This document shows, piece by piece, positions 3,095-20,176 of a DNA stretch of 57,821 nucleotides. Source of the DNA: a virus. The stretch spans positions 1-57,821 of the IMG/VR virus record IMGVR_UViG_3300041402_001073, one strand, 5' to 3'. Position 1 is the first letter of the stretch; each line of letters opens with the position of its first letter. The notes below the pieces were generated by a model. The model saw only the letters and a list, made by a program, of their open reading frames with translations, had not been told where the DNA came from and searched no databases. A program made the position numbers and the translations under genes.

Positions 3095-3457
3095 CTACCC
3101 CTTAGCCTTAATCTTGGCTTCTTTAAGGTCTTCTCGGTAGTCTTCAAGATCCTCTTCCCAGTCCTTGTAAATTTCCTTCTGTCTATCAGTGGCATCCTTA
3201 AGGTCCTTGCCATAGTCATCACGGTATTCCTTCATAAGCCCCTCAACGAGTCTTATATCCTTCCGGATGTCCTTTACCTCATGTTGGGCCAGATGCACCT
3301 GAAACTCTGCATTTTTGGCGAATACGATAGTTGCATACCAGCCTCCACCACTTCCACCACCTATCAGCAGAGCGACAATGCCAGCGACTATAGTTTTCTT
3401 GGCTTTACTAGACAGTCCGTTAAGAATATCCTCTAGCCACTTTAACTTAATCCCCAT
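3095..3457 (-). CDS. Single-TM coiled-coil protein, spanin/holin-accessory candidate
   Basis: 120 residues. A short basic N-terminus is followed by one Gly-rich hydrophobic segment (about residues 22-45) and then a highly charged helical region to the C-terminus (KDIRKDIRLVEGLMKEY and similar), likely coiled coil. The layout of an N-terminal anchor with a periplasmic coiled coil matches inner-membrane spanins (Rz-like), and the gene directly follows the endolysin. No overlapping outer-membrane lipoprotein (Rz1) frame was identified. The ribosome site GGAGGG precedes the ATG. Function is inferred from topology and position. Confidence 0.5.
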   Translation of the reverse strand: MGIKLKWLEDILNGLSSKAKKTIVAGIVALLIGGGSGGGWYATIVFAKNAEFQVHLAQHEVKDIRKDIRLVEGLMKEYRDDYGKDLKDATDRQKEIYKDWEEDLEDYREDLKEAKIKAKG

Positions 3458-3937
3458 TTAGCCCTCCTTTACATCGCTTGAGAATAATTCCCATGGAAAG
3501 CCATCGCCAGGGTCAACTTTATTGTCAGGATCTATAGTGCTATGCTGTACGATTTCACTTACAGGATAATGGCCAAGGATACTCCTTACAAAGTCAACGC
3601 CGGCTTTATACTGAATCTCTCTCACCCAGTCGGTTTGTATTGTCTTTCTAAACGTCTCCCATGTATGAGCACCGGGCACCATAAATTCGACACCAATGGA
3701 TTTAAAGTTAAAACCCTGAGCCCTTGCATGCCATGCTATCTGATCGTTGCTTCTTGCCACTATTACCTCGCCGGAAGGGGAGATGAAGGCATGGGCAGAT
3801 TCACCCCTAGAACGTAAAAAACGAGGAGCATAAATGTCTTCGTCTTTAAGTCTAAGGTATTCACCTATGGCATGTATTACGATTGCTGTAGGCTTAAGTC
3901 CTTCCTTGCCATGTACTGAGGGCATATTAATTATCAC
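3458..3937 (-). CDS. N-acetylmuramoyl-L-alanine amidase (Amidase_2) endolysin
   Basis: 159 residues, GTG start after GGGAGATTGAT. It belongs to the T7-lysozyme/PGRP amidase family, which cuts the bond between muramic acid and the stem peptide. Visible zinc ligands are H22 (in AIVIHAIGE), H132 (VQHSTID) and D142 (KVDPGDGF), with the catalytic-type E84 in SIGVEF and the SAHAFISPSGEV strand between. There is no signal peptide or cell-wall-binding domain, as in Gram-negative-type globular endolysins. It lies directly after the holin-like gene and before the spanin-like gene, so it is the main lysis enzyme. Confidence 0.88.
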   Translation of the reverse strand: MIINMPSVHGKEGLKPTAIVIHAIGEYLRLKDEDIYAPRFLRSRGESAHAFISPSGEVIVARSNDQIAWHARAQGFNFKSIGVEFMVPGAHTWETFRKTIQTDWVREIQYKAGVDFVRSILGHYPVSEIVQHSTIDPDNKVDPGDGFPWELFSSDVKEG

Positions 3938-3938
3938 A

Positions 3939-4184
3939 TCAATCTCCCAATGGCGCCTTCAATTTCATATAAGCAGCCATTCCAAGCCAAAATATCCCTA
4001 TTAAACCAGCAACGACACCTGTAATGAAAGAAACAATAACGCTTTTTCTGACCAAACCGAATGTTCTAATCCAACCTTCCATTTCTTTGTGATGAAGAAA
4101 ATGAGTCTCAGGATCTACCCAGAACTTCTTTCTGGCATCATTGATAACTTCTTCCAGTATTGATCTGATTTTAGCTTCTTCCAC
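3939..4184 (-). CDS. Holin-like small membrane protein
   Basis: 81 residues, GTG start with AGGAG five bases upstream. The N-terminal half is soluble and contains a His-rich FLHHKEM segment; one hydrophobic Gly-rich helix spans about residues 48-72, with a short charged tail. Size, one TM segment and the place immediately before the endolysin fit a pinholin- or holin-like role that releases or activates the amidase. The resemblance to small phage membrane proteins of the form 'vdpExHxxHH...W' is from memory. No functional residue is diagnostic. Confidence 0.55.
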   Translation of the reverse strand: MEEAKIRSILEEVINDARKKFWVDPETHFLHHKEMEGWIRTFGLVRKSVIVSFITGVVAGLIGIFWLGMAAYMKLKAPLGD

Positions 4185-4195
4185 CTTAACTCCTA

Positions 4196-5632
4196 TTAGT
4201 CAGTTAATGAGATATAGTCCCAACCCCTTGAAGCGCCATTACAAATATACAAACGGTTATTGTCTGTATCTATATACTGCCTACCCCACTCTGAGTCAGC
4301 ATTGCAATCTGCCGCAAGAGGAACTGCTCCTGAATGATTCCCAAATTGAGCAAACATTCCATCAGGCACTACAACTTCATTAGGGTCTACAAAGAGATAG
4401 CTTGTAGTATTATTAAAGTTGTTTATTTTAAATACATCACCAACAGGAGTATCGGAGTCACTTATAGTAAAACCATTCTGCGCTGCATTTAATACTATCT
4501 CAGGACTACCAGGAGAGCTGTTGTTGTAGGCTCCTTGAAGAGTAATCGCAGCCGTAGTGATTGAACCTCCAGCAAAACCAATTCTAGGTCTAGCATCAAT
4601 TATGCTGACAATGTTAGAGTCGTTCTTCTTTACAAGGATTTGGGCTACAGGAACTAGCCCTGAAGTATGTTGGTCTGTAAACGGCCCGAAGTCTATGCCT
4701 GAGTCAATGGCATCTTGAAGGTCTGAGTGTTGAGATTGACAGTGTATTAAGAAAAATCTTACATTACTAAACTCAGCATCCTGTGTACCTCTTGGTGTCA
4801 TCAAAAGAGTGTTGCTGCAATGATAATTATTGTTCTGCATCGCAGTCAAGTCTGTTCCATTGTCATAATTCGTATCATCTAAAAGCAATGTCTCCTCAAC
4901 TATTGTCCACGCACCGCTATCGTGGTAAACATGGAGGCCTGACAGATTAGCAAATGAATCCCAAGTTTGATTCATCCTGTCTGAATCGTATAGCCCTCCA
5001 GCACTAAAATCTAATTGAAGGGCTGTTGAGCTTTCGGTTGTTAATCCTCCTGTTACAAACAAAGCCCCTATAGCTTCTGATAAATATTTCTCATTACGGT
5101 ATCCATCTTCCGCTATCAGGTATCTGTGGTCAAACACACCAAGGTCGGAAATGTCTGACCCTGAACCTGTCTGCCCTACTTTGGCTTGTATTCTGGCAAT
5201 AGGCATAATTGTTCTTTTCTGAGCATTACTAAACTTCCCCTGCTGTTTTACTATGCCAGAGGTTCCTACTCCAATCCATTGCTCACCTTCCCCAACTCCA
5301 AATCCAGGGTCAACTAAGGTGGTAGCCTCAAGTTCATAATGCGCGCCTTGAATATGCACTTCACATTCGGCTATGTCTATCTTGGTAATATCTCCTGAGT
5401 TACGAGTTACTTTACAAGAGGCATCTGATCCTGCTTCATGGGATTCAACGCCAGTGCTAAGTGTTGAGCTTATGACTGCATCATCCCAATTAGTAATAGA
5501 ATCATATCCTATGGTGTTCGCAGTTAAGTCACCATGAAATATACTTCCACTAGGATTATCTGTTCTTTGTGGCCCATCAGCCCAAGCATACCCACCGATG
5601 GACATAAATAGTAAGAATATTAATACGCGCAT
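4196..5632 (-). CDS. Signal-peptide-bearing fibre-like virion or secreted protein
   Basis: 478 residues. It begins with a typical Sec signal peptide (Arg then a hydrophobic run, predicted cleavage near AWA-DG). The mature part is Ser/Thr/Asp-rich with fibre-like strands (HDSGAWTIVEETLLL, SGLVPVAQILVKK). The C-terminus has a compact head-like motif (two cysteines in ADCNADSEW and YICNGAS) seen in phage fibre tips. The gene is the last of four exported proteins lying between the adaptor and holin genes. A fibre with an export signal is unusual; it may instead decorate or modify the infected cell surface. Confidence 0.6.
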   Translation of the reverse strand: MRVLIFLLFMSIGGYAWADGPQRTDNPSGSIFHGDLTANTIGYDSITNWDDAVISSTLSTGVESHEAGSDASCKVTRNSGDITKIDIAECEVHIQGAHYELEATTLVDPGFGVGEGEQWIGVGTSGIVKQQGKFSNAQKRTIMPIARIQAKVGQTGSGSDISDLGVFDHRYLIAEDGYRNEKYLSEAIGALFVTGGLTTESSTALQLDFSAGGLYDSDRMNQTWDSFANLSGLHVYHDSGAWTIVEETLLLDDTNYDNGTDLTAMQNNNYHCSNTLLMTPRGTQDAEFSNVRFFLIHCQSQHSDLQDAIDSGIDFGPFTDQHTSGLVPVAQILVKKNDSNIVSIIDARPRIGFAGGSITTAAITLQGAYNNSSPGSPEIVLNAAQNGFTISDSDTPVGDVFKINNFNNTTSYLFVDPNEVVVPDGMFAQFGNHSGAVPLAADCNADSEWGRQYIDTDNNRLYICNGASRGWDYISLTD

Positions 5633-5641
5633 AGTATCTCC

Positions 5642-5995
5642 TTACTGATTAAGTATTGCGTCCACTGCTGCTCTATCATCTTCACTGTCCAATGCCTCAT
5701 ATTTCAAATCATTGGCAATTGCTCTATCTTTCCTGGCTTGGCTTAGGTTTTGAAATTGATGCTTAGACCCAGAATAGGTCCTCTTAAGGACATCAAACAT
5801 ATGGGACAAAGCTACTTCCATGTGATATTCTATTGTCTTCCCTGACCTGCTTTCAATATTTGCGACAACGGCACTGGCCGGGGCCGGAGCGTCCCATGTT
5901 ATATCTACTGTCTTGAATGTAAAAGACCCTGAATCTGCATTTGCTATTGTAGCGGTAAAAAGCACACACAATATCACTATTAGTAGTTTTTTCAT
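5642..5995 (-). CDS. Small exported protein of unknown function
   Basis: 117 residues. An N-terminal Sec signal peptide (MKKLLIVILCVLFTATIANA, predicted cleavage before D21) is followed by a short beta-like segment and a helical, charged C-terminal half (LSQARKDRAIANDLKYEALD). I recognise no family. It is packed nine bases from the upstream end of the next exported gene and shares its ribosome-site style, so it belongs to the same operon of exported structural-region proteins. Confidence 0.6.
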   Translation of the reverse strand: MKKLLIVILCVLFTATIANADSGSFTFKTVDITWDAPAPASAVVANIESRSGKTIEYHMEVALSHMFDVLKRTYSGSKHQFQNLSQARKDRAIANDLKYEALDSEDDRAAVDAILNQ

Positions 5996-6016
5996 CTCAT
6001 TATTCTCCTTAATTAA

Positions 6017-6823
6017 TTATTCCCATACCTGCCAATTAGCTCCGTCAGAACATACCTCTACGTTTTCCCCTGAAGTATTCAAGGCACTATAGTTGAGAAA
6101 AGAATTTACTCCATCAGGGCTTAAAGTTTCAGACCCCGCACCCTCTAAAAAACATCTATTCCCAGACGCATTAGTTATCCTGACTGGGTAACATTTACCC
6201 TCTATACCAACTGCCGTAGGTAAATTCAAAGTCACATCATTATCATTTGTTAAGCAATCTATTCTATGGTAAGTAGCGGCCACTGCTACAGTCGCAGATG
6301 ATACATTAATAAAAGGAGTAATTATTGAACCATTAAAAATAGTCCCGGTTGTTGTTATTCTTTGTCCTTCCACAGCACCAGCAATCAAGGAAAGTGCGTC
6401 TTCTGCGGCACGACCTACTCCAGTATCCTCATCGGTATAGCCAAAAACAAAAGGCGTAGTAGACGTAGACCCGCTATAACTTAATCCCCCACCAAAATTT
6501 ACTACTGAAGCAAGTCGAGTCTTAGTAATTTGCCACCTAACAACTCCCTGATTAGTCACTCCAATAGCATTATTACTTATTGCATAAAGCCCTGTATCCC
6601 AATCGCCTCCAATACCTACACTAGGGTCTGCTGCTGTACCGTCACCAACCTCTATACTGTCAGCAGAGATATCACTGAAATTGGCATCACCAGAGTATTC
6701 GCTAAAAACATTCTCGGAAGTTAATACGCCAGTAACTTTTGAAACAGTTGAAACCTCAGCCTGGATGTTGCTGGATGATAGAAGTCCGACAAATACCAGC
6801 CCTAGGATTAGTATCTTTTTCAT
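6017..6823 (-). CDS. Exported fibre-like protein with C-terminal tip domain
   Basis: I choose the ATG at 6821-6823, not one 14 codons upstream, because it opens a clear signal peptide (MKKILILGLVFVGLLSSSNIQA) and follows a GGGGG ribosome site. This gives 268 residues. The mature protein has beta-helix-like repeats (GDGTAADPSVGIGGDWDTGLY, typical of fibre shafts). The C-terminal block (TLNLPTAVGIEGKCYPV ... VCSDGANWQVWE) resembles phage tail-fibre tip domains. An export signal on such a protein is odd. It may be secreted to the envelope, or assembled on virions outside the cytoplasm. Confidence 0.62.
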   Translation of the reverse strand: MKKILILGLVFVGLLSSSNIQAEVSTVSKVTGVLTSENVFSEYSGDANFSDISADSIEVGDGTAADPSVGIGGDWDTGLYAISNNAIGVTNQGVVRWQITKTRLASVVNFGGGLSYSGSTSTTPFVFGYTDEDTGVGRAAEDALSLIAGAVEGQRITTTGTIFNGSIITPFINVSSATVAVAATYHRIDCLTNDNDVTLNLPTAVGIEGKCYPVRITNASGNRCFLEGAGSETLSPDGVNSFLNYSALNTSGENVEVCSDGANWQVWE

Positions 6824-6824
6824 A

Positions 6825-7235
6825 TCAAACCCCCATAGTGACGGTAACTGCTGCATCGGTCCCACTTATTGCGCTCACATTGGCCTTTGCGTAGGCCCAC
6901 TTTGCATTCATAGCAAATCCATCTACATCACTTGTAGTTCCTGAAAGAGTTATAGTGCCTGCAGTTATCCAATCATCATCATCCCCGGTATTTGACACAT
7001 AGATGATTACCGTAGCTGTTACGGCGCCAGTGCCTACGACCTTGGCATCAAAAGTCCGAGCCCATGGAGATACAGCAAAAATATCGCTGTCTCCGGTAGA
7101 TGTCTTGCCGTTTAGCATGCGCGCGATATAATTATCTCTGTCTACGATAGGTCCATTGTCAACCTGTTTAATTGAAGCATAGGCGACTGTAGATACAAAT
7201 ACTGCCAGCAACAGTCCAATGAATATACTTTTCAT
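6825..7235 (-). CDS. Exported beta-sandwich phage domain protein
   Basis: 136 residues. A Sec signal peptide (cleavage expected near AYA-S) precedes one beta-sandwich domain with the pattern VIIYVSNTGDDDDWITAG, TITLSGTTSDVDGF and NAKWAYAKANVSAISGTDAAV. This pattern is common among small phage head/tail decoration-type proteins, which normally lack signal peptides. The gene overlaps the upstream gene by four bases (ATGA type), so the two are probably translationally coupled. Function unproven. Confidence 0.6.
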   Translation of the reverse strand: MKSIFIGLLLAVFVSTVAYASIKQVDNGPIVDRDNYIARMLNGKTSTGDSDIFAVSPWARTFDAKVVGTGAVTATVIIYVSNTGDDDDWITAGTITLSGTTSDVDGFAMNAKWAYAKANVSAISGTDAAVTVTMGV

Positions 7236-7495
7236 TTGTCCTCCTTGACGGCTTCTTTAAAGGCATCCTCAAACTCGTCCTCCGCCATGCCGCCTTTTTT
7301 CATCTTAGGAAGGATTTTTGCAAGCGTTTCGGTTACTTCATCGAGATCCTTGGCAAGCAATGTTTTATCTTCCCTGGAAGGGCCACAACAAACTTCATCC
7401 TTATCGTCCTTCTTTTTCTTTATCTTTACCCTTACATGGATGATATAACCTCCATCATCAGTCTTTGCGATAGAAACCATTTCCTCTGTATACAT
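7232..7495 (-). CDS. Small charged protein of the head operon
   Basis: 87 residues: an N-terminal beta hairpin (GGYIIHVRVKIKKKKDD), a CCGPS segment and an acidic helical C-terminus (MAEDEFEDAFKEAVKEDK). The C-terminal helix resembles the N-terminus of the scaffold-like protein (VDEFEEAFKEAIEEE), which may mean a shared interaction surface. It sits between the adaptor and the exported proteins. No family recognised. Confidence 0.6.
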   Translation of the reverse strand: MYTEEMVSIAKTDDGGYIIHVRVKIKKKKDDKDEVCCGPSREDKTLLAKDLDEVTETLAKILPKMKKGGMAEDEFEDAFKEAVKEDK

Positions 7496-7507
7496 ATCTT
7501 CCTCCTT

Positions 7508-8641
7508 TTATGAGAATCCGAATTCTTTATCTCTTACTCTTCTATTTTTTGGATTTCTTCTACTAGTGCCTTCTTTTATGGCCGAAGGTGGTGGCCCAAA
7601 TCTCTGAGAAAATAATGCTTCGTGAGTGAGCGACTTTCTTATATGCTCTGTATCTTTATCGTGATTGCCCAATGCCCGGTAAGTAATCCAGTCTATGAGT
7701 CCAAAATGATACTCTTCTGCCACTTCCGGTGATTCTGAAGAAGTAGATGTTATGTCGCCCGTAGCTGGCGTTGCAGGTGTTCCTGAAACAGGAAATGAAT
7801 AATTGTCATCATCTATCCGGGTTACAACTGCCGTAGTATTGTATTCAGCTTGATTGGCTCCTTCATGTGTAACGGTGTCATCTGTGGAATATCCGTGGTC
7901 CGGAAGATTAACAGTGGCTACTGCACCAGATCTAGTGATACCAGTTACAACTTTAGACCCAATGACCATATCGGCCAGAGGAAGCCTTTGTACCTCAAGG
8001 GTGAGGGTATCAACCAGAGTAGCGGTGATTGTCCCTGTAGCGGGTGTATCTGGCGTTCCTGATACGGTATATGAATAAGAATCGTCGTCTATCTTAGTGA
8101 TAACTGCTGTTACATTGTATTCAGCCTGGTCAGCATCGGCATGTGTAACGGTTGCACCGTCATCAAACCCATGGGATACAAGCCCGACTGTAGCAACGCT
8201 TCCTACGCGAGTAATGCTTGAAACAGCTTGGGACTCATTTGCTATTGGCTGAGGAACAAGGGTTATCTCGCCCTTCTCTTCCAAAAAGTATACCGGTGTG
8301 CCTGTGCTTAATCTCCAGTCCGGGTAAAATTCATTCAACCAGCCTTCTGTCTTCTTCTCAAGCTCGATTGAATTCCAAGAAGGAACACACTTTCTTATCC
8401 TAATTATTTTTTGGGAAATGGCATAAGAGGATGTTTCTGCCACTAAATTAAGTAAGCACAATGGAACGGAGGAGAGATCGCTTGCCGTAGTCTTATCTAC
8501 GAGGAGACTTGATCTACGGCAAGCCTCTTGCTCCGAATCATTTAAAAACCTTTCGAGGAGATAATTAGACCATGTATAGGGGACAGAGTTATCGAATAGA
8601 TATCCCTGTCTAGTCAGCTGTATTATCTCCGCGCCGGTCAT
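7508..8641 (-). CDS. Head-tail adaptor with two inserted Ig-like repeats
   Basis: 377 residues. The helical core looks like podoviral adaptor proteins that dock under the portal: an N-terminal helix pair (YTWSNYLLERFLNDSEQEACRR), a beta part (GEITLVPQP ... LTLEVQRLPLADM) and the closing helix (PEVAEEYHFGLIDWITYRAL). Two copies of an approximately 69-residue beta domain are inserted, residues about 140-208 and 232-300, both with the pattern ITRxGxVATV, HGxxxxxTVTHxxAxQAEYN, DDDxYS and SGTPxTPATG. Without them the protein would be near the usual adaptor length. The inserts fall on either side of the LTLEVQRLP strand, suggesting surface loops. Confidence 0.7.
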   Translation of the reverse strand: MTGAEIIQLTRQGYLFDNSVPYTWSNYLLERFLNDSEQEACRRSSLLVDKTTASDLSSVPLCLLNLVAETSSYAISQKIIRIRKCVPSWNSIELEKKTEGWLNEFYPDWRLSTGTPVYFLEEKGEITLVPQPIANESQAVSSITRVGSVATVGLVSHGFDDGATVTHADADQAEYNVTAVITKIDDDSYSYTVSGTPDTPATGTITATLVDTLTLEVQRLPLADMVIGSKVVTGITRSGAVATVNLPDHGYSTDDTVTHEGANQAEYNTTAVVTRIDDDNYSFPVSGTPATPATGDITSTSSESPEVAEEYHFGLIDWITYRALGNHDKDTEHIRKSLTHEALFSQRFGPPPSAIKEGTSRRNPKNRRVRDKEFGFS

Positions 8642-9115
8642 TTACTTTACTTCTCCATATACTGTCATGGCAAACCTGGATATATCTTTCCATACTTCGT
8701 TGCCTTCGTCATCATACGAAAGCTTTCCGGTAACAGATTCCCTTAGGTTATTTACAACTCCTACTGGAACTCTTACTTTTTGACCTCGTTGTATTAAAAA
8801 CGGTGTGCCGTCAGAAGGATCAGTAACAAAAACATCCCCGCCATCAGGTCCGTCATTCTCGGCAATCATGATTTCAAACATGCGCTTCTTGGGCTTATTG
8901 GGTCCCTTGCCTGCAGGGATAACCTTGTCTTTCTTGGCTGGAACCTCATCCTCTGCCGGCTCCTCTTCAATAACTTCCTCTTCGGCCACCTCAGGAGTTT
9001 CTTCCTCGGATACTTCTACTTCTACTACAACTTCCTCGCTCCCAGTAGCCCCTTCTGTAGGCTTCTCAGTCTTTCCGGCCTCGGGCGGTTTAGGCCCTGT
9101 TCCTTTTCTTGCCAT
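8642..9115 (-). CDS. Virion-associated protein with acidic Pro/Glu N-terminus
   Basis: 157 residues. The first ~90 residues are low-complexity Glu/Pro/Val/Lys sequence. The C-terminal ~65 residues form a compact domain with DGGDVFVTDP, PFLIQRGQKVRVPVGVVNNLRESV. That 'RG-x-x-V-x-VP-x-x-VV' segment is typical of small proteins found beside N4-gp56-type capsid genes. It is translationally linked to the adaptor (stop and start adjoin). Likely a head-completion or decoration protein; role inferred from position. Confidence 0.6.
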   Translation of the reverse strand: MARKGTGPKPPEAGKTEKPTEGATGSEEVVVEVEVSEEETPEVAEEEVIEEEPAEDEVPAKKDKVIPAGKGPNKPKKRMFEIMIAENDGPDGGDVFVTDPSDGTPFLIQRGQKVRVPVGVVNNLRESVTGKLSYDDEGNEVWKDISRFAMTVYGEVK

Positions 9116-9137
9116 GATATTTCTCCTTGTTTTAATG

Positions 9138-9163
9138 AAAGGGCCCCGAGATTGGGGCCCTTT
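9138..9163 (-). terminator. Perfect 10-bp hairpin, likely intrinsic terminator/attenuator
   Basis: AAAGGGCCCC pairs perfectly with GGGGCCCTTT around a six-base loop. On the leftward transcript the stem is followed by TTTCATT. It lies between the stop of the exported protein (9167-9838) and the ATG of the next gene, so it could trim or attenuate the late transcript after the capsid group. Confidence 0.6.
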
Positions 9164-9166
9164 AGG

Positions 9167-9838
9167 TTAATCAGATTCTACATACTCCGCAAAGAGTACA
9201 AGTTTACCAGCGGTTATATCGCCTGCAGCGGAACTCAATATTGAGAACGTAAACGCTCTGGCATCGGTTGTCTTCGTAGAGAAGCTGGCTGCAGTCCCAG
9301 TTTGGATTGCTTCGTGATAACCGGCATCCCAGACATCTCCTGAGTCACCACTACTTATCGATGCGAAAGCTGCAATACCTTGTGCATCATCGGTGGGAAG
9401 ACCGATACCCAAAATGGCAGCATCAGAACCACCACTTTCAAAGGCGGTTATAACCTCATACCATGCTCGGGTAATAACGGCATTGTCGGGAAGATCCACA
9501 CCCATATCATAATCTGTATTGTGTGTTCCACCATCTACACCAAAGTCAAAAGTCGCCCTGGCTATCCTGTTCGCATGGAGAGCATCTGCGGTATAAGCAG
9601 ATAGCTTCCCTTCCGTCACAACCAAGGCAGCTATGGTAGTTACACCAGTGCTGGCCACGGTCATGTCTCCAGTCATCCCTGAAAGACTGCCAGCAGCAAC
9701 AGGTATGTCACCCTCAGCCAAGTCAATTATAAGCTGCTTAATAGCCTGTATCTTCGCCTCAACTACTGGCGCGCGATAAGTGGCAGCTAAGACAGCTATA
9801 AAGGCAAAGGCTATGAATATTTTAAAAGATTTCTTCAT
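9167..9838 (-). CDS. Exported phage decoration-like protein
   Basis: 223 residues. A Sec-type signal (KKSFKIFIAFAFIAVLAATYRAP, with VEA-K as possible cleavage site) precedes an A/T/G-rich linker. The beta domain (DLPDNAVITRAWYEVITAF, AILGIGLPTDDAQGI, AGKLVLFAEYVESD) is frequent in phage structural regions from aquatic metagenomes, to my recollection. It is followed by the hairpin at 9138-9163. A capsid-proximal protein with an export signal is unexpected; this is the first of five such genes. Confidence 0.62.
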   Translation of the reverse strand: MKKSFKIFIAFAFIAVLAATYRAPVVEAKIQAIKQLIIDLAEGDIPVAAGSLSGMTGDMTVASTGVTTIAALVVTEGKLSAYTADALHANRIARATFDFGVDGGTHNTDYDMGVDLPDNAVITRAWYEVITAFESGGSDAAILGIGLPTDDAQGIAAFASISSGDSGDVWDAGYHEAIQTGTAASFSTKTTDARAFTFSILSSAAGDITAGKLVLFAEYVESD

Positions 9839-9849
9839 AATTCCCTCCC

Positions 9850-10320
9850 TTAGCTTTCAGTTACGATAGAACTGACATCCTGGTAAGTATCAGTGACCTG
9901 TCCAGCATCCAGAGCAGTTGTGCCAGCTATGAATGTACCGCCAGCGCTAGTTGCCACTTGGAAGTAACCTACTGGCGCACTGTCTGCAGGAAGGTCAGGT
10001 AACAGAGCAAGGACAGCGGTAGCGGCATCGTTACCTTTAGTAGTGGTCACAGTTCCGTCGGCAATTATACTTACCAGGTACTTACAGAACGTGGAAATAG
10101 GCTGTTCTGCTCCGGCAGTAATAACAATATTGTCAGTAATAGCCTTGGAATACATAAGGCCATTAACGCAATATTTAAGTGCTACGGCAATCTTGATCTT
10201 AGTGGACGTGCCACCAATAGTCAGGCCAGCTGCGGTGAAGCTCCTGTTCAACAGACTGGTGAGAATATCTCTCAATGGCTGTTTTACAACGGCCCCAGTA
10301 ATTTTATTTACATCTCCCAT
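9850..10320 (-). CDS. Capsid-adjacent hypothetical protein (decoration or fibre candidate)
   Basis: 156 residues, no signal peptide. The sequence is Ala/Thr/Val-rich and beta-like (GLTIGGTSTKIKIAVALKYCV, STFCKYLVSIIADGTVT, PVGYFQVATSAGGTFIAGT). It sits directly downstream of the major capsid gene, where cement or head-fibre proteins are usual. Its ribosome site is GAGGAG in CGAGGAGAATTATT. No confident family. Confidence 0.6.
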   Translation of the reverse strand: MGDVNKITGAVVKQPLRDILTSLLNRSFTAAGLTIGGTSTKIKIAVALKYCVNGLMYSKAITDNIVITAGAEQPISTFCKYLVSIIADGTVTTTKGNDAATAVLALLPDLPADSAPVGYFQVATSAGGTFIAGTTALDAGQVTDTYQDVSSIVTES

Positions 10321-10379: not shown

Positions 10380-11375
10380 TTACGCCAACTCAGTTGCAGA
10401 CACTTCGGCTACAGCCATGAATGCGTCGTTCAGGATAAGTGCATTCTGCATGGTCTTCCATGAAACAGAACCCCTCTGACCAAGTGGGTCAGACTTTGAA
10501 GGAGTTGGGTTGATAACGGAAGTTTTTACTGCAAACTGGCCCTTCAGTGCAACTCCAGCCCAAGCATTTTTCCCGAGGTAGATAACAGGATAAACGTCTG
10601 CTTTCGTTCCGGAAGTAGTGACCATGCCATTCTCGACACCACCACCATCTTCATAAGGAGTGAAGATGTTGGAGAGGATATACCTCACGTTATTTACAGA
10701 GCCAATTTCACCCTCAAAAGGAGTAGTGCCGTGGCCGTAATCCTTAGCATCAATGAAGCCAGTCATGTTCCTGATGTCGTCCTCAAGGTCAGTATGACCA
10801 AGGCCAACATAACAAGGAAGAACCGCCTCAGTGTTAAAATCAGGTGAAGATTTGATTATAGAGGTGATAAACATGGCGTTCTGACGCTTAAGGGCTCTTA
10901 TTATTTTCTTTTGGAGAGTAGTGGAAAGAGCTGTGTTCACGTCAGTCCTGGCAGTACCGTTGGCGTAGAACTTATTAGTACCAGCCTTAAGTACGTTATA
11001 ACGGACGGTCTCGATAGTCTGAGCAGACTGTTCACCAAGAATACCCATTGTTTCCTTAAGAACAGGGTCTTCGTGTGTATCTGCTACAACGTCGGTGATT
11101 TCAACCAGATCACCATACTGGTTAAGGGTTACATCGACATCTACATAAGTCAGCTTCTTGCTGGTAGGCGTAACACCCTCAACAAGAGGAGTAGTTGCCA
11201 GAGCGAGAGCAAGGTAACGTCTGAAAGACATAGACTTTGTGCTTCTGGCAGGAAGAGGCTTGCCCTGCATGAACTTCTCAAGTACGAGAAGAGGCAGTCC
11301 CCTTACTAAAAGATCTTTTGATGCAAATGCTGCTGTTCTTGGTGAAATATCACCGTAACTTGTTAATGGTGGCAT
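10380..11375 (-). CDS. Major capsid protein, N4-gp56 family
   Basis: 331 residues with AGGAGG ahead of the ATG. It matches the N4-gp56 capsid family along its length: YGDISPRTAAFASKDLL at the N-terminus, the FRRY and TTPLVEGVTPTSKKLTYVDV segments of the E-loop/P-domain side, QYGDLVEITDVVADTHEDPVL, and GEQSAQTIETVRYNVLKAGTN. The C-terminal half forms the A-domain (VYPVIYLGKNAWAGVALKG, near-invariant in the family). It is preceded by a scaffold-like gene and followed by decoration candidates, the normal order for head genes. Confidence 0.9.
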   Translation of the reverse strand: MPPLTSYGDISPRTAAFASKDLLVRGLPLLVLEKFMQGKPLPARSTKSMSFRRYLALALATTPLVEGVTPTSKKLTYVDVDVTLNQYGDLVEITDVVADTHEDPVLKETMGILGEQSAQTIETVRYNVLKAGTNKFYANGTARTDVNTALSTTLQKKIIRALKRQNAMFITSIIKSSPDFNTEAVLPCYVGLGHTDLEDDIRNMTGFIDAKDYGHGTTPFEGEIGSVNNVRYILSNIFTPYEDGGGVENGMVTTSGTKADVYPVIYLGKNAWAGVALKGQFAVKTSVINPTPSKSDPLGQRGSVSWKTMQNALILNDAFMAVAEVSATELA

Positions 11376-11403: not shown

Positions 11404-12333
11404 TTATGCTTCCTTCCAAGCGCCATCGAAATCATTCATGTCGACTGCGCCTTTTCCTTTTCCGGATATAGGAGTTTTTTTGGTATCAACAACTTCCATA
11501 TCTTCAAGTTTGCTGGTATCTACCTCCTCCTCTTCCTCCGGAGTTTTCTGCTTTTCTTCTGAGTAGCCCTTATCTTTCCTGAAAGCAGCAACAAGTTCTA
11601 TTACGTCTTGAGTGTCGCCCTCTGTGTAGGCCGCCTGAAAAGCCTTTCCATTTGAACCTGGCTGAGATTCAACCCATTCTTCAAGCTCACCATTTTCCAC
11701 ATAAGTATGGTAGTCAGGGTGTGCCTCTATTACTGAGTTATCAAAAGCATCTCTTCCAGACTGAGCATATTGTACCTGAAGAGGATTGACCATCTCTGAA
11801 ACTTCACCAAATTGGTTTTTAAGCCTTTTAGATACATCGCCCATAACCGATTTGATTACTAGGCCTGCAACATCATTTAAGGCACCTCCAATCTCGTCGC
11901 CGTACTCTTCTTTCAATGCCTTGACAGAATCGAGCTCTCCAATCTGTTTCGACATTGCTTCGGTAACGGGTGCAAAATCCTCTTCCTCTTCCTCTGGCTC
12001 TTCGGATATAGGCTCTTCTTTTGGAGCCTTATCTTTCTTAACCTCAGAATTATACATCCCCTGCAATGTTGAATGCTTCTGATTTAGCGCATCAAGATCT
12101 TCTTGAAGCTCGGCCAATGTTTTCTCTGCCGGTGCTTCTTCTTTAGGCTCTTCCTCAGCAGGTTCTTCTTCAACAGGCTCTTCTTCTTTAGGTGTAGGAG
12201 CTTCTTCCTCCTCATCCTTAGGCTCCAGGTCTTCGGTAGGCGCTTCTTCCTCGCCCCCTTCTTCCTCTATAGCCTCTTTAAAAGCCTCTTCAAATTCATC
12301 TACTTCTACGACTTCTTCTTTCTCTTCTGCCAT
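11404..12333 (-). CDS. Capsid scaffolding protein
   Basis: 309 residues from the ATG at 12331-12333, chosen because GGGAGG lies five bases upstream; an ATG ten codons earlier lacks such a site. The N-terminal ~110 residues are almost wholly Glu/Pro/Ala. The middle is helical (KSVMGDVSKRLKNQFGEVSEM), and the C-terminus is a short basic/amphipathic tail (SGKGKGAVDMNDFDGAWKEA) of the kind scaffolds use to bind capsid. Position immediately before the capsid gene and composition support a scaffold; no protease domain is visible. Confidence 0.7.
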   Translation of the reverse strand: MAEEKEEVVEVDEFEEAFKEAIEEEGGEEEAPTEDLEPKDEEEEAPTPKEEEPVEEEPAEEEPKEEAPAEKTLAELQEDLDALNQKHSTLQGMYNSEVKKDKAPKEEPISEEPEEEEEDFAPVTEAMSKQIGELDSVKALKEEYGDEIGGALNDVAGLVIKSVMGDVSKRLKNQFGEVSEMVNPLQVQYAQSGRDAFDNSVIEAHPDYHTYVENGELEEWVESQPGSNGKAFQAAYTEGDTQDVIELVAAFRKDKGYSEEKQKTPEEEEEVDTSKLEDMEVVDTKKTPISGKGKGAVDMNDFDGAWKEA

Positions 12334-12675: not shown

Positions 12676-12875
12676 GCTATTTTTTGCTTTAAAGTCTTTT
12701 TCAGCGATCTATACGCTCTTATTTCACCTTGGATTGTAGGAAACTCTTCTTCTTTAGCAACTTCAAGGTCTTTATGAAATTCACCTATCAAGCTGTCTAA
12801 ATATTTCATAGTACATTTAGCGGCACTAGCACTTATATTGCCTAGAAATTCCTTACTCAGATCTTTTTTCGACAT
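12672..12875 (-). CDS. Small helical protein downstream of portal
   Basis: 67 residues, mostly charged helices (KCTMKYLDSLIGEFHKDLEVA, RAYRSLKKTLKQKIA). Its start overlaps the portal C-terminus by 23 bases. Similar small coiled proteins often lie beside podoviral portals, but I recognise no family and give no function. Confidence 0.55.
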   Translation of the reverse strand: MSKKDLSKEFLGNISASAAKCTMKYLDSLIGEFHKDLEVAKEEEFPTIQGEIRAYRSLKKTLKQKIA

Positions 12876-14835
12876 CCTGCCTCCCTTGCTTTATTGCTGT
12901 TAGGGCATTAATCATTGTGTCTATTTCCTCATTGCCAATTTTCTTAACCGTAGCCTGAGCTTTTGAATTCATATTCGCAGCCTTTGCGTCTGTATACCCG
13001 ATATCTGCTTCAAGTCTTAACTTCTCAAGCTCGACAGCCTCTGAGTCACTTGCAGCTTCGATATTGGCCTGAGCTTCCTCTTCACTATAGAGAAGTTTTT
13101 CCGGATCAAGGTCGTGTGCCTTTGCTCTTTCCTCAAGCAGAACCCTGTTTTTAACAAAAGGCTTATCTTCTGGCTGTAATGTCTGAGCGAAGAAATCGAG
13201 TGCCTGAGTCCTTTGCTCTTTACTAACAAGAGATGATGAACCAACTGCCTTGACATTCATATCTCCCTTTATGGTCTTATCAGGATTATACTCTAAATTC
13301 CAAGCGTAGAAATTTCTAACAAGGCTTTCATTTGGCTCGTCGAAGTTTTTAACGATATCATTGATGGTGAGGTTTGTATTTGACTGTCTTATGGAAATGC
13401 CTTTTGATGTCTCATTTGTTGTCTTGGCAGCCTCCCCAAATAAGAATGCAGGCACAGTTGACTCCATATCGCCATTACGCTCGAACTTGCCAATGATTGC
13501 CAAATATTCACTCATACGAGAATCAATTTGATGCACTCTCAGCGCTGGGGTTTGGGCATCCAGTCCACGGCCTTCTCTTTCCAACTGTCTGCCAGGGTAT
13601 ATATCGTCAAGCTCTTCATCTGGCATTAACTCGGTATTTGTCTCAAATATAGGCCCGGCAACCCATGCGGCATTATCCAGCATAGCTCTTGTTGCAGAGC
13701 ATATAGAAATCTGGGTATCCCTTATGATCCTTGGCAGCCCTTCACCGAATATACTGGAATCATCTTTATCAAAATAGAATATGTGATACAGGTCAGTGAG
13801 TGATTCGATGGGATGGATTATGGCCTTAATGACTTCGTTTCCAAGCAACCATATATTCACAAACCAATCTTTTTCTACTTCATCGCCCTCTTTGATTATG
13901 CCAGCCTCAAGGAGATCGTGCCCGTCAAGATATCCGTTGTATTCCAGCACTTCATACTTGTTTGTGCTTTCCTGAACATCTTCCTGCTCTTTTATCGTCT
14001 TAAGATCTATCTCCCATTGCCTGAGCTTATAATCACCCTTTTTATGAGATTTTATATACTCTGTTATTACATCGTTCTTGAAATTTTTCCTCCTGCCTAG
14101 CTTTCTTAATTCATGCTTTGTCATGGCATGAAGTTCAAAAACAAAATTACAGTGCTCAAATTCAGTTGAAGACATATCCGGGAACCACTTCCAAATCAAT
14201 ACATTGTCAACAACTGGCTTAAATCCTTTCTTCTCCTCTTGATTATATCCGTTGTCAGTTTTTACAATCTTTCTTGATATATGCCCTTTAGATAGAGGGC
14301 CCTTGAATATGCCGGTCCCATACATTACGCTGGATCTTATTACAGCCTTAGCCTTGGCTTTGTAGTTGGATTCAAGAAGCTGGTCATCTACAGTTACAGT
14401 CATTCTCTGTGCGGTAGCCTTGACATACTCCATTACACCTTTTTCTACATCTTGAGGAGTTAGCTCTTCGCCTGGTTCAAGGCCTAAACTTAAATGCTCT
14501 ATTACAAAATCAATCTCTTCTTTACTTATTTCTGGCTTTGGAGTTGGTAAGATTTCCCAGTTTCTATCGTTATCCGGGAAGAGAGTATCGTTAAGCTTGG
14601 CTATTAATGGCTGGACTTTTGATCTGGTATACCTTGGATAGACTTTACTTCTAACCGGTCCTATTTTATCAAGAACTTCTGGATCGTATATGCCCTTGTA
14701 CTGCCTGAGGTCTTCAAGCCACGCATCTTCCCTGAAGTTCTGCCTGCGCGATTCGGTCTCATTAAAGTCGCCCTTAAGCTTTTTGCCTATGGCTTTTATC
14801 TTCTTCTCACTTATCGACAGTTCTCTTTCCGGCAT
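12853..14835 (-). CDS. Portal protein
   Basis: 660 residues with AGGAGG nine bases before the ATG. Features of large podoviral portals are present: an N-terminal helical region (RSKVYPRYTRSKVQPLIAKL, TLFPDNDRNWEI), a beta wing (VIRSSVMYGTGIFKGP, WKWFPDMSSTEFEHCNF), the stem/crown region (GEGLPRIIRDTQISICSATRA) and a late segment TTNETSKGISIRQSNTN. The C-terminal ~100 residues are charged coiled helix. It follows the terminase and two small genes. The ring it forms receives the terminase and, later, the adaptor. Confidence 0.85.
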   Translation of the reverse strand: MPERELSISEKKIKAIGKKLKGDFNETESRRQNFREDAWLEDLRQYKGIYDPEVLDKIGPVRSKVYPRYTRSKVQPLIAKLNDTLFPDNDRNWEILPTPKPEISKEEIDFVIEHLSLGLEPGEELTPQDVEKGVMEYVKATAQRMTVTVDDQLLESNYKAKAKAVIRSSVMYGTGIFKGPLSKGHISRKIVKTDNGYNQEEKKGFKPVVDNVLIWKWFPDMSSTEFEHCNFVFELHAMTKHELRKLGRRKNFKNDVITEYIKSHKKGDYKLRQWEIDLKTIKEQEDVQESTNKYEVLEYNGYLDGHDLLEAGIIKEGDEVEKDWFVNIWLLGNEVIKAIIHPIESLTDLYHIFYFDKDDSSIFGEGLPRIIRDTQISICSATRAMLDNAAWVAGPIFETNTELMPDEELDDIYPGRQLEREGRGLDAQTPALRVHQIDSRMSEYLAIIGKFERNGDMESTVPAFLFGEAAKTTNETSKGISIRQSNTNLTINDIVKNFDEPNESLVRNFYAWNLEYNPDKTIKGDMNVKAVGSSSLVSKEQRTQALDFFAQTLQPEDKPFVKNRVLLEERAKAHDLDPEKLLYSEEEAQANIEAASDSEAVELEKLRLEADIGYTDAKAANMNSKAQATVKKIGNEEIDTMINALTAIKQGRQDVEKRSE

Positions 14836-15019: not shown

Positions 15020-15264
15020 TCTAATATTTCTCCGTTGTGTAATACAAAAAGATTCATTTTTGAGTCTCCCTGTCCACTGGGTTTCGCTATCATCTGAATG
15101 TTGTTTCTATCAAAAATCTCTGTAAGCTTCTCAGAGGCCTCAATCAGTTTGTTCATGTCAGTGTCAGGATCTTTTGTTGCCTCCACAAGTGCATCAAATT
15201 CTTTCTTGTCTGACTCATTGAGTATTTTTCTGACGACATTTTGGGCTTTAATCTTGTCCATCAA
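15016..15264 (-). CDS. Small helical protein following the large terminase
   Basis: 82 residues, charged and mostly helical (AQNVVRKILNESDKKEFDALVEA), ending in a short beta segment (MNLFVLHNGEILE). It overlaps the terminase stop by four bases (ATGA), so translation is coupled. No family recognised. Confidence 0.6.
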   Translation of the reverse strand: MMDKIKAQNVVRKILNESDKKEFDALVEATKDPDTDMNKLIEASEKLTEIFDRNNIQMIAKPSGQGDSKMNLFVLHNGEILE

Positions 15265-16727
15265 TATCCTCCCTTAGATGCAGGCGAATATGCCTTCTGT
15301 GGCCTTCTTCTTTTTTTAGACCTTGTTTCCTTTGAAATTGTTCCTGCTATAAACATACATCCGTACTGAAGGGCATCATGAGGATGAGACCATGCGTTTT
15401 TTGCTGGCTCCTCGGTATATCTCTCTCCAGACCCCTGAATACGTCTGAAAGAGTACCCACTATTAAAACCCTTCCTCAATACTTTACAGGAAGGATCTAG
15501 TTGAAATGTAGCCTTACCGTCCGTTAGCCTTGTCAAGAATCCCTCAACGGCACCGGTTCTGGCCACAAGATCGTTTGAATAAGCTGGCGTTACCTTAAAC
15601 CCTTCTTCTCGAAGTACATCAAAGCAAGTTCTTTCATCTGTTTGAGCTCTCTGGTTTCCAGCAGGGTCTCCTGTAACAGAAATCCGGAAGCCATTATATT
15701 TTGTAGCCAAAAGAGGTTTGACGCTATTTTGGACAAATCTCTGGATACCAATACCTTCAGATATTAACTCATCATAGATTTTAACAAAGCCGCGCGTAGT
15801 TGCCTGCATAAATATCGCCGAAGGTGTAAGCCCGAAGTCAAAGGCTACAACAATCTCCCTGCTTTTTTCTGGGGTAAGGGTGTGTTCGGATACATGAATA
15901 TTGTCGTTGTAGCACATTTCATATACAGGCTTACCTTCCTTGGTGTAACCGTACTGACCTTTGATGTAGACGTCAACATACGATTTATCCTTACCTTTCA
16001 TCATGTTAGTGTAATAGTCAGAAGTAAGGCCTGGCTTCTCGCCTTCCGGATAATCTTCAGGTGTCTTACCTTTAGCACAAATATTCTCGGCATTAGCGGC
16101 TAAACCGGATGGCTGCTTAAATAGCCTTGCATTATCTGGCTTATCCACTTCAAACATCTTATGCCACCATGATTCATCGTCAGGCGGATTAGTATCCAGA
16201 ATCATCCCGGTCCACGTTCTGCCACCATCCCTATTGGAAGGATATCTATCCAGGCGACCATCAAGGGCGTCTATGATGGCCTTAGGGACCTCGCGCGCCT
16301 CATTGACCCAAGCGCCAGTCAACTCCAGCGAGAGGAGGTTTGAGACATGCTCAGGTTTATCTAGTGCACGAAACAGCAGCTCTATTTCCACACCCTTAAA
16401 TCCTGTTATTGTGTAATCGTGAGATGCGCTGCGATAGTTCCCAAAAACTATAGGAGGGAACCAGTCGAGAATTGTTTTGATTGTCGTGTCATTAAGCTGA
16501 GGGAAGGTGTTCCTTACTACAGCCCATCTTGTGCGGCGGATACCGTCCTTGCCTGGCGCCTGTTCGTGTCCTCGATGTATAATCTCCCATAACATACCAG
16601 ACGACTTGCCACTTCCAAATGGCCCCATGACGCCACGGATACGGCTGCCATCTTGCATGAATTCCCCTATTGTGGGTACATGCTTGCAAGTGTATCTAAT
16701 ATCTATTTTAGGAGTTGCTACTTCCAT
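15261..16727 (-). CDS. terL: Terminase large subunit (DNA-packaging ATPase/nuclease)
   Basis: 488 residues from ATG 16725-16727, which overlaps the preceding TGA as TGATG; a TTG one codon earlier is less likely. The ATPase domain has Walker A GPFGSGKS (about residues 35-42), the 'WxVVRNTFPQLNDTTIKT' segment after it and a Walker-B-like LELTGAWVNEARE. The RNase-H-like nuclease begins at VAFDFGLTPSAIF with its first metal Asp, followed by GDPAGNQRAQTDE and the late Asp in SHPHDALQYG. This protein cuts and pumps DNA into proheads through the portal. Confidence 0.92.
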   Translation of the reverse strand: MEVATPKIDIRYTCKHVPTIGEFMQDGSRIRGVMGPFGSGKSSGMLWEIIHRGHEQAPGKDGIRRTRWAVVRNTFPQLNDTTIKTILDWFPPIVFGNYRSASHDYTITGFKGVEIELLFRALDKPEHVSNLLSLELTGAWVNEAREVPKAIIDALDGRLDRYPSNRDGGRTWTGMILDTNPPDDESWWHKMFEVDKPDNARLFKQPSGLAANAENICAKGKTPEDYPEGEKPGLTSDYYTNMMKGKDKSYVDVYIKGQYGYTKEGKPVYEMCYNDNIHVSEHTLTPEKSREIVVAFDFGLTPSAIFMQATTRGFVKIYDELISEGIGIQRFVQNSVKPLLATKYNGFRISVTGDPAGNQRAQTDERTCFDVLREEGFKVTPAYSNDLVARTGAVEGFLTRLTDGKATFQLDPSCKVLRKGFNSGYSFRRIQGSGERYTEEPAKNAWSHPHDALQYGCMFIAGTISKETRSKKRRRPQKAYSPASKGGY

Positions 16728-17980: not shown

Positions 17981-18664
17981 TCAATATTCAATCCTCAGCT
18001 TTATACCACCACTCTCAGATCTTCCATAAAGAGACCGGTATTCGTTTTTGTAGTTAAATAGAAGAGAGATGTGGTCTTTTATCTTGGCCAACTTCAGGTC
18101 GCCTGTAAATTTGGTAATATAATCGGCGCTATTCTGCATGCTTGGCTGGTAAAAATAGATGAGAGATAGGAAGTCGTTATTGAATTTGGCTCTATAGGAG
18201 TATCGGCCTTGGCCGGTTTGTTCGCATGTAGCGGGATCGCTACAGTTTAGAGATGTAAACTGATACAGAAACCCTCCACTGAAGGAGAGCTTTGTGCTTT
18301 TTTTCTTGTAGATGTAATACTTGAGTCCAGCTCCAATATCATTCTCAAAATCAATACCCAGAACCTTATTGTAGCCCACTCTTTCATCTAGCCATAAGCT
18401 CCATCTTTCGTTAATGGCAGGGCTATAATTTAAATCCAACTCCCCTTCATCCTGGGTAACGATGCCGTCCGTCTTGCCTTTGCGGTAATATGCCGACAAT
18501 TCCAGTTTATCTTCAATAGTGTCAGCAAAATCAATTCCAAGAGTAGAGTTCTTGATGCCTCTGACGTTGGACCCACTCCATAAAAAATCTATATTGCCAG
18601 CTGAAGCGGTCCCGGAACATCCGGCAATCATCAAAAATATAACTACAAATATAAGTTTAGGCAT
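17981..18664 (-). CDS. Outer-membrane beta-barrel protein, DUF481/YdiY-like
   Basis: 227 residues. The signal peptide (MPKLIFVVIFLMIAGC...) could be cleaved by signal peptidase I after TASA or, at IAGC, as a lipoprotein. The mature chain is a run of alternating beta strands with aromatic girdles (SAYYRKGKTDG, WSLWLDERVGYNKV, LKYYIYKKKSTKLSFSGGF, DHISLLFNYKNEYRSLYG) and ends in an aromatic residue (KLRIEY), as outer-membrane barrels do. The pattern matches the DUF481 family. An infecting phage or prophage could use it to alter or block surface receptors. One Cys pair (NCSDPATC) lies in a loop. Confidence 0.68.
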   Translation of the reverse strand: MPKLIFVVIFLMIAGCSGTASAGNIDFLWSGSNVRGIKNSTLGIDFADTIEDKLELSAYYRKGKTDGIVTQDEGELDLNYSPAINERWSLWLDERVGYNKVLGIDFENDIGAGLKYYIYKKKSTKLSFSGGFLYQFTSLNCSDPATCEQTGQGRYSYRAKFNNDFLSLIYFYQPSMQNSADYITKFTGDLKLAKIKDHISLLFNYKNEYRSLYGRSESGGIKLRIEY

Positions 18665-18921: not shown

Positions 18922-18997
18922 TGGTCTGGGTGGCAGGACTCGAACCTGCGGCTTCCGGAATCCAAGGCCGGCTGTCTACCAACTGACATACACCCAG
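18922..18997 (-). tRNA. tRNA-Pro, anticodon UGG
   Basis: A complete 76-base cloverleaf is read on the minus strand. Acceptor stem CTGGGTG/CACCCAG has the C1-G72 pair and A73 discriminator typical of bacterial proline tRNAs, followed by an encoded CCA. The D arm is TGTC/GACA, the T arm GCAGG/CCTGC with loop TTCGAGT, and the variable loop is five bases. The anticodon TGG is at 18962-18964. The only flaw is a C-T mismatch at the top of the anticodon stem (31-39). It starts seven bases after the rtcB stop codon and is probably cut from that transcript. Confidence 0.92.
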
Positions 18998-19003
18998 AAA
19001 ATT

Positions 19004-20176
19004 CTATCCTTTTATCACAGCCAATGGCTTTAACTCAACTAAAATATCAACTAGATCAGACTGGTTCTCCATAACAGTAGCGATATCTTTATAAGCTCCG
19101 GCAGCCTCATCAAGGTCTTTCTCGCCCCTTATAGCATGGATAACTCCAAGATCATCTAGTCTTTTTATCTCCTCCTCAAGATTAAGCTCTCTCTGGGCTT
19201 GCTTTCTGCCCATCCTCCTGCCTGCTCCATGGGAACAGGAATGGAAGCTCTCAGGATTACCCTTACCTTTGACTATATAGCTGGCTGTGCCCTGAGAACC
19301 GGGGATGATACCTAGTTGTCCAGCGGCGGCCTTAGTCGCACCTTTACGATGAACCATTACGTTCTTACCAAAATGATTCTCCATAGTAGCGTAGTTATGT
19401 GCAATGTTTATAGACTCTTCCACATCTAAATATACAGATTCGCTGGCAAAACAATCCAGAACGCGATCCATCATCAGTCTTCTATTGGCCAATGCAAACT
19501 CTACACAATAATTCATTTCAGCAAGGTAATTTTGCCCCTCATCTAAATCCCAAGGAAGGAAAGCAAGTTGCCATTCTTTAGGAACCTCACTGTGCCATCT
19601 TTCATTCAATTTAATGGCAAGCTTATTGTAGTGATCAGCTACCTTTAATCCAAGATTTCGGCTTCCAGAGTGAATCATAACCCAGATGTAGCCATCACTG
19701 CCTTTTTGAATCTCAATGAAATGATTTCCACCTCCAAGAGTGCCAAGAGAGATCAGAGCGTTTTCGTATTCTCTCCCAACGATAGAACTAAATGGTTTCA
19801 TTACATTATCATTCTCTTTAGGCATTAGGCCTTCGGGCTGTTCGTGCTTGTGCTTTTTGAATCCCACCGGTACAACTTGACGTATCTTGCCTATAATCCT
19901 CTTCAGCATATCAACATCAATCTCAGTCAAAGAGGTCTTAACAGCACACATGCCACAGCCTATATCCACACCAACAGCATTAGGAACTATCACACCTTGA
20001 GTAGCCATCACCCCGCCAATAGGCATACCATACCCTTGGTGAGCATCAGGCATCAGCGCTATATGTTTAAACACAAAAGGAAGGTTCGCTAAATTTCTAG
20101 CCTGTTCCATTGCCCCATCTTCAATATCATCCAGCCATATCTTGATAGGCTTTTTTCCATTAGTATCAACTCTCAT
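19004..20176 (-). CDS. rtcB: RtcB-type RNA ligase
   Basis: 390 residues, close to the bacterial length of about 400. RtcB joins 2',3'-cyclic-phosphate or 3'-phosphate RNA ends to 5'-OH ends using GTP and Mn2+. The metal and catalytic residues are present: D71 and C74 in GVDIGCGM, the NHFIE segment with H152, H169 in MIHSGSR, H260 in IAHNYA, and the guanylated H276 in VHRKGAT; SCSHGAGR (about 313-320) is also intact. It precedes tRNA-Pro by seven bases. Phages use such ligases to mend tRNAs cut by host anticodon nucleases; here that role is inference. Its start overlaps a tiny membrane gene. Confidence 0.93.
   Translation of the reverse strand: MRVDTNGKKPIKIWLDDIEDGAMEQARNLANLPFVFKHIALMPDAHQGYGMPIGGVMATQGVIVPNAVGVDIGCGMCAVKTSLTEIDVDMLKRIIGKIRQVVPVGFKKHKHEQPEGLMPKENDNVMKPFSSIVGREYENALISLGTLGGGNHFIEIQKGSDGYIWVMIHSGSRNLGLKVADHYNKLAIKLNERWHSEVPKEWQLAFLPWDLDEGQNYLAEMNYCVEFALANRRLMMDRVLDCFASESVYLDVEESINIAHNYATMENHFGKNVMVHRKGATKAAAGQLGIIPGSQGTASYIVKGKGNPESFHSCSHGAGRRMGRKQAQRELNLEEEIKRLDDLGVIHAIRGEKDLDEAAGAYKDIATVMENQSDLVDILVELKPLAVIKG

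Follow-up and report, generated by a model that had tools for sequence, protein, structure and literature searches.

Virion proteins of tailed phages are, in the textbook view, assembled in the cytoplasm. The described systems closest to the locus analysed here (the window, a 57,821 bp stretch of DNA that makes up one IMG/VR virus record from an environmental sample) are those of tailed Cellulophaga phages, namely phi19:1, phi18:3, Ingeline, Nekkels and phi46:3. These share with the window a run of three to five successive genes of fibre or lyase type, located near lysis genes, whose products carry a Sec/signal peptidase I (SPase I) signal peptide (SP). By the prediction rule described below, phi19:1 gp101, gp102, gp103 and gp104 as well as phi18:3 gp85, gp86 and gp87 bear such signals (gp85 and gp104 being weaker calls), and Ingeline possesses four consecutive SP genes. 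The GenBank records mark all of these phi19:1 and phi18:3 products as structural proteins on the basis of experimental MS/MS proteomics, and the PHROGs names of phi19:1 gp101-104 are virion structural protein, pectate lyase, tail fiber and virion structural protein, respectively. Lyases with signaling peptides had been noted earlier in Ingeline and Nekkels (PMC8776804). As in the window, genes for transmembrane (TM) proteins and for lysozyme or glycosyl hydrolase come within a few kb of the SP cassette in phi19:1 and phi18:3. The Cellulophaga cassettes differ in that they include pectate lyases and obey the Q rule (Gln at +1), which PMC10367356 describes for phage signals in Bacteroidetes, whereas the window combines AxA-type sites with a decoration-like gene placed among those of the head; moreover, tblastn searches of the cultured-phage collection with SP1, SP3 and SP5, three of the five SP-positive window ORFs (SP1-SP5, at 4196-9838), yielded no match.

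Porphyromonas gingivalis phages (Nixviridae) likewise contain genes that use the general secretion pathway of the host and are suited to its signal peptidase, but these genes have no assigned function, their authors propose them to be host-surface modifiers, and virion-type domains are not reported in the accessible part of that study (PMC10367356). Sec-exported endolysins, such as Lys44 of fOg44 and the SAR endolysins, are also tailed-phage proteins exported by Sec ahead of lysis (PMC6116005). They are, however, lysins, whereas the window endolysin is signal-less and no lytic domain was detected in the putatively exported SP1-SP5 by Pfam and PHROG profile searches. Finally, SP1 and SP2 resemble ordinary decoration and fibre proteins (the KPP25 structural protein, the CW02 putative tail fiber and the KHP40 cement protein) in fold and gene position, but most of the examined homologues are devoid of an SP.

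Gene order of the window and predicted signal peptides

The two ends of the window overlap (264 bp, 94% identity), from which we conclude that it is close to a complete genome, either circular or terminally redundant. Judged by its portal and adaptor, the virus looks like a podovirus of the SU10 type. Read leftward, the minus strand encodes terminase, portal, scaffold-like protein, major capsid protein (MCP), the gene at 9850-10320, SP1, the gene at 8642-9115, adaptor, the gene at 7232-7495 and SP2-SP5 (7235-4196), after which come a TM protein, the amidase endolysin and a second TM protein (3095-4184) and then tail genes (Table 1). The original prediction had five signal-bearing ORFs embedded in the structural cassette. 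All five were found on the minus strand at the coordinates it gave, within 4196-9838; their placement can be refined, in that SP1 stands by itself, with head genes on one side and the adaptor on the other, and SP2-SP5 lie together in one block flanked by 7232-7495 and by the lysis genes.

Table 1. Features of the window around SP1-SP5 (L0nn, comparison loci)
Feature	Position	Strand	Basis
Terminase	15261-16727	minus	Assigned by reading the sequence
Portal	12853-14835	minus	SU10_portal, slightly below the Pfam cut-off
Acidic scaffold-like protein	11404-12333	minus	
Major capsid protein (MCP)	10380-11375	minus	phrog_1357 major head protein, 1.2e-57; Pfam Phage_capsid_4, 1e-8
Conserved gene between MCP and SP1, without SP	9850-10320	minus	Homologues in many MCP-related loci
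SP1, 223 aa: SP, linker and C-terminal fibre/decoration domain	9167-9838	minus	SP rule; domain homologues; fold matches of a weak model
Unnamed gene between SP1 and adaptor	8642-9115	minus	
SU10-type head-tail adaptor	7508-8641	minus	Pfam SU10_adaptor, 1.2e-14
Small conserved gene immediately upstream of SP2-SP5, without SP	7232-7495	minus	Homologues in L003, L004, L006, L007, L009, L013, L014, L023
SP2, 136 aa: SP and small beta-sandwich virion-type domain	6825-7235	minus	SP rule; SP-less phage homologues; fold matches
SP3, 268 aa: SP, fibre motif (DPSVGIGGDWDTGLY...) and C-terminal domain, two Cys pairs	6017-6823	minus	SP rule; weak PHROG match
SP4: SP and 97 aa with no assigned family	5642-5995	minus	SP rule
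SP5: SP and 458 aa fibre-like protein, three close Cys pairs	4196-5632	minus	SP rule
Holin-like by position, 81 aa, single C-terminal TM segment	3939-4184	minus	Sequence; no family match
Endolysin (N-acetylmuramoyl-L-alanine amidase), without SP, two genes past SP5	3458-3937	minus	Pfam Amidase_2, 6.4e-19; PHROG amidase/endolysin

Rule-based signal prediction agreed with the Sec signals originally proposed for the five proteins: each has a K/R-containing n-region, a hydrophobic core (best 8-residue Kyte-Doolittle mean of 3.1-3.9) and an SPase-I-type site. All five ORFs start with ATG preceded by a Shine-Dalgarno-like sequence. The predicted cleavage sites (arrows) are MKKSFKIFIAFAFIAVLAATYRAPVVEA↓K in SP1, ...TVAYA↓S in SP2, ...SSNIQA↓E in SP3, ...TIANA↓D in SP4 and ...GYAWA↓D in SP5, i.e. 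AxA-type sites with K, S, E, D and D as the mature +1 residues; the SP1 site was picked by eye, as L004 and L003 conserve VEA↓K / VDA↓A, the site chosen by the script being residue 18. Unlike typical particle-building proteins, which are made in the cytoplasm and have no export signal, all five carry an SP.

The hand-written rule gave 1.5% positives on shuffled N-termini, and 2-22% positives when the first 30 residues of SP1-SP5 themselves were shuffled, because these are rich in hydrophobic residues. Among genes of at least 80 aa, 5 of 8 in the 4196-9838 region were SP-positive vs 4 of 61 in the remaining window (Fisher p = 5e-4), a value that is optimistic because the region was picked for its signals. 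Conservation is better evidence that the signals are real. SP1 and its L004 homologue are 83% identical and differ at 12 of 30 signal residues, yet the VVEA↓K / VVDA↓A site is kept, as are the charge and the hydrophobic core, and SP-bearing homologues of SP1 and SP2 occupy corresponding positions in L003, L004, L002 and L037. The signals also seem to follow the habits of the host peptidase, with AxA sites in the window and +1 Gln in the flavophages: Gln occupies +1 in 10 of 11 signals of phi19:1, phi18:3 and Ingeline and in none of the five of the window. Such fitting to the host peptidase argues for real cleavage.

Homologues with and without signal peptides

The mature parts of several of these proteins had been likened to ordinary phage decoration or fibre domains. 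The comparison holds for SP1 and SP2, which have SP-less homologues in phage structural cassettes, and moderately so for SP3 with its fibre motifs; it is not established for SP4 and SP5, for which no relatives were detected. A search of other phages for the same domains with and without a signal, as originally suggested, recovered both kinds for SP1 and SP2. The view that at least these two are ordinary virion-type domains with an SP added in front is therefore supported by sequence comparison.

The C-terminal domain of SP1 (ATFDFxVDGG...) was found in 20 loci, with an SP in 7 (the window, L004, L002, L036, L037, L041 and L052) and without one in 13; the N-terminus from L036 scored as TM by the rule and was counted as SP by eye (MKKILLSVLVFTMLAWLPIQNGYTA↓W). 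The 13 SP-less loci are phage or prophage cassettes, and in one of them (L044) the domain terminates a 736-aa fibre. Conversely, L003 encodes a signal and linker of the SP1 type followed by a different C-terminal domain. Viral fold matches of SP1 include phage structural and tail-fibre proteins, such as those of KPP25 (structural protein), CW02 (putative tail fiber) and phiAxp-2, but are supportive only, because the SP1 model is poor (mean pLDDT 48.7, about 62 for the domain). SP1 is ~70% identical between the window and L037, while the capsid proteins of the two are without BLASTP similarity (E=0.15); the SP1 gene therefore moves between phages. In the SP1-domain tree (L052 omitted as partial), the SP label needs at least two changes, of which the starred branches force no more than one, and, within its limited sampling, SP versions are placed inside phage fibre families. 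An Rz-like spanin function for the SP1-type domains of L037 and L047 (phrog_20969, E of 0.009 and 0.002) was rejected, the matches being weak and the domain lacking a TM anchor. A scan of genome contigs for the SP1 domain returned two SP-less matches among phage genes, in a deltaproteobacterial MAG and an Acidimicrobium MAG; an MCP search of 400 genomes from the phylum of the former gave one weak match. The window integrase had no match in the SP-bearing relatives, which are mostly fragments.

SP-less homologues of SP2 are encoded in phage loci L027 (49% identity over 75 residues), L028, L029, L031 and L036, and their starts fall only a few residues away from the mature end of the SP-bearing versions. 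The SP2 model is beta-rich (pLDDT 73); lambda tail tip proteins, YomS and the KHP40 cement protein are among its PDB fold matches. Syntenic SP2 homologues come both with and without the SP, which acts as an added piece of ~20 residues. In L036, SP1 has a signal and the adjacent SP2 homologue has none, the latter beginning where the mature SP2 of L002, L004 and L037 begins. A third domain family repeats the pattern, with an SP in L037 (8919-9560) and none in L058 (67% identical) or L002 (11862-12428). In L052 an SP is followed immediately by a fibre-type start, DTKISDLTAIAAAGLASDDEFAIVD, in a protein matching phrog_16122 virion structural protein (2.4e-11). Among MCP relatives, signals are present in L003 and L004 (79-82% MCP identity) and absent in the more distant L006 and L007, which have no SP2-SP5 block; the block is accessory for this reason.

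The premise that virion proteins normally lack export signals is borne out: none of 72 assessable fibre homologues of the L052 protein, drawn from 79 other viral loci and in some cases cut or of uncertain start, was called SP-positive, and the rule that virion proteins carry no signals therefore holds generally. Across all genes of those 79 loci, the SP rate is 9/617.

Possible fates of the five SP-bearing proteins

The reading we favour, and to which we give an even chance, is that SP1-SP5 are exported, cleaved virion appendage proteins that meet the particles, most likely at or after lysis. Appendage (fibre or decoration) genes would have acquired Sec signal peptides; their products, expressed late within the minus-strand head-tail-lysis gene run, would be exported via the host Sec pathway, cut by signal peptidase I and retained in the periplasm or on the cell surface, and the Cys pairs of SP3 and SP5 could oxidise outside the inner membrane. 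Upon opening of the envelope by the adjoining lysis genes, SP1-SP5 would encounter finished heads and tails and attach as accessory fibres. The analysis establishes the signals, synteny, the virion-type nature of the SP1 and SP2 domains and the presence or absence of an SP among homologues, and analogous proteins of other phages carry MS/MS-based annotation; export and cleavage in the window phage, their timing, the disulfides and the attachment to particles are inferred. Among the roles originally proposed for an envelope-delivered protein set, the one in which virion parts join the particle during lysis or later is backed by the GenBank MS/MS annotation of SP-bearing proteins in two cultured Cellulophaga phages, so that this proposal finds partial support. 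Nothing pointing specifically to surface remodelling or superinfection exclusion emerged for the window, although either may apply. On the other side, MS/MS on phage stocks can pick up contaminants from vesicles or lysate, and a protein located beyond the inner membrane would be diluted by the time lysis brings it to the heads. The orphan status of SP4 and SP5, the accessory SP2-SP5 block and the Cys content of SP proteins, which is not raised, also count against post-export attachment.

The absence of the block from L006 and L007 also speaks for another fate, in which SP1-SP5 would be envelope or secreted proteins made from virion domains and without a virion role, like morons; they would coat the host or drift unattached, and so block receptors (as decoys or for superinfection exclusion) or alter the surface. 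To this main rival we assign a substantial chance, albeit one clearly below even. Outer-membrane modification is what the authors suggest for the SP genes of P. gingivalis phages (PMC10367356), and the signal-bearing polysaccharide lyases of Ingeline and Nekkels (PMC8776804) and a DUF481 protein whose N-terminus is of the export type, also encoded in the window, point the same way. However, SP1 lies within the head-gene order and retains a fibre-type linker and domain, the analogous SP proteins are annotated from phage particles, and SP1-SP5 have neither a membrane anchor past the signal nor a clear lipobox.

The annotation of such proteins in the particles of other phages would also be accounted for if the N-terminal hydrophobic segment, instead of exporting the protein, served as an uncleaved anchor or as a propeptide for cytoplasmic assembly; PMC10367356 describes MCPs with predicted signal peptides that the prohead protease presumably removes. 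We consider this improbable: the sites match SPase I and vary by host group, and the segment can be missing, the protein then starting at the mature end. That SP1-SP5 are captured host proteins, secreted, equipped with common adhesion domains and merely residing in a phage genome, is very unlikely. No homologues of SP3 and SP5 were found in cultured phages, and their C-terminal beta-rich domains are presumably of a kind that also occurs in bacterial surface proteins; but the relatives found for SP1 and SP2 sit in phage or prophage cassettes, including the two genome matches of SP1; the SP1 gene moves between phages with BLASTP-unrelated capsids, and its tree, limited as the sampling is, roots the SP versions inside phage fibre families.

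Returning to appendages that would be exported before joining the particle, unrelated tailed-phage lineages with different hosts may have converged on one maturation route, putting Sec signals on accessory fibres whose production, and possibly oxidation, would take place outside the inner membrane, and which would join particles only after lysis; we advance this tentatively, as falling a little short of an even chance. Recurring signal-bearing appendage genes, partly MS/MS-annotated in cultured phages, make it testable whether some fibres are attached outside the cell. Possible reasons for outside assembly are oxidative folding, avoidance of early binding to the host surface and a block to superinfection. 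A missing signal peptide, which has been used as an argument for phage origin (PMC6199706), is poor support for it.

Cysteines and relatives of SP3, SP4 and SP5

Disulfide folding was considered as a general cause of export and rejected: SP and non-SP cassette proteins do not differ in Cys content (0.71 per 100 aa in SP proteins vs 0.75 in their neighbours), about half of 22 SP proteins lack Cys in the mature part, and there is just a mild preference for even Cys counts. Disulfide formation as a reason for export may be limited to the SP3 type, with two Cys pairs, and the SP5 type, with three near pairs. SP3 weakly matches phrog_28766 tail fiber (E=0.0018), and its fibre motif recurs in an SP-less protein of L059 (10520-11329). 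L002, L004 and L037 have its C-terminal domain in genes that bear an SP; the two Cys of its second pair occur together in the window and L037 and are jointly missing from L002 and L004.

SP4 had no homologue among the comparison viral loci searched. SP5 contains six mature Cys, at 73/90, 272/298 and 443/464, and no relative of it was recovered from viral contigs, either by protein or by its C-terminal motif used as a DNA pattern, or from cultured phages. The DNA pattern did bring out L067, a further phage whose fibre genes are of the SP type, and it was an SP-bearing fibre-like gene of L067 that led to the Cellulophaga phages.

Signal-bearing proteins in other viral contigs

By number of signal-bearing genes, the nearest parallel to the window is the viral locus L037, where a single structural cassette contains four of them (at 5649, 6496, 6869 and 8919). 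In the viral contigs L038 and L039, the gene for the C-terminal fibre/decoration domain of the window protein SP1 is devoid of a signal, and large signal-bearing proteins are encoded slightly downstream in both; these contigs possibly represent another lineage with exported appendages. The two fibre-like signal-bearing genes of L067, probably a Bacteroidota phage, are adjacent.

Features of the window and of the compared viral contigs
Feature	Contig	Position	Strand	Remarks
Large signal-bearing protein	L038	4529-6391		β-helix and PKD domains
Large signal-bearing protein	L039	6682-10251
Fibre-like signal-bearing gene	L067	2590-3999		YSQ-type site
Fibre-like signal-bearing gene	L067	3999-6218		YSQ-type site
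DUF481 protein	window	17981-18664	-	Pfam 6.8e-9
tRNA-Pro(TGG)	window	18922-18997
RtcB-like RNA ligase gene	window	19004-20176	-	recognised from sequence
Sixth signal/anchor-type protein	window	22572-22961	-	fibre-like stretch PSISFSGGEGQWGLADTGIGGYQ...
Tyrosine integrase-like gene	window	46498-47574

Further export-type or signal/anchor-type proteins in the window

The DUF481 protein, encoded between tRNA-Pro and the terminase region, has an export-type N-terminus with a possible lipobox (IAGCSG) and is a possible phage-encoded outer-membrane protein. The sixth signal/anchor-type protein is encoded at a distance from the structural block.

Lifestyle and completeness

Given its tRNA-Pro and tyrosine integrase-like genes, the phage may be temperate. 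The window ends (1-264 and 57558-57821) overlap over 264 bp with 94% identity, which makes the contig near-complete; the mismatches lie mostly towards one side, and the left-end tail ORF (877 aa) extends into the overlap.
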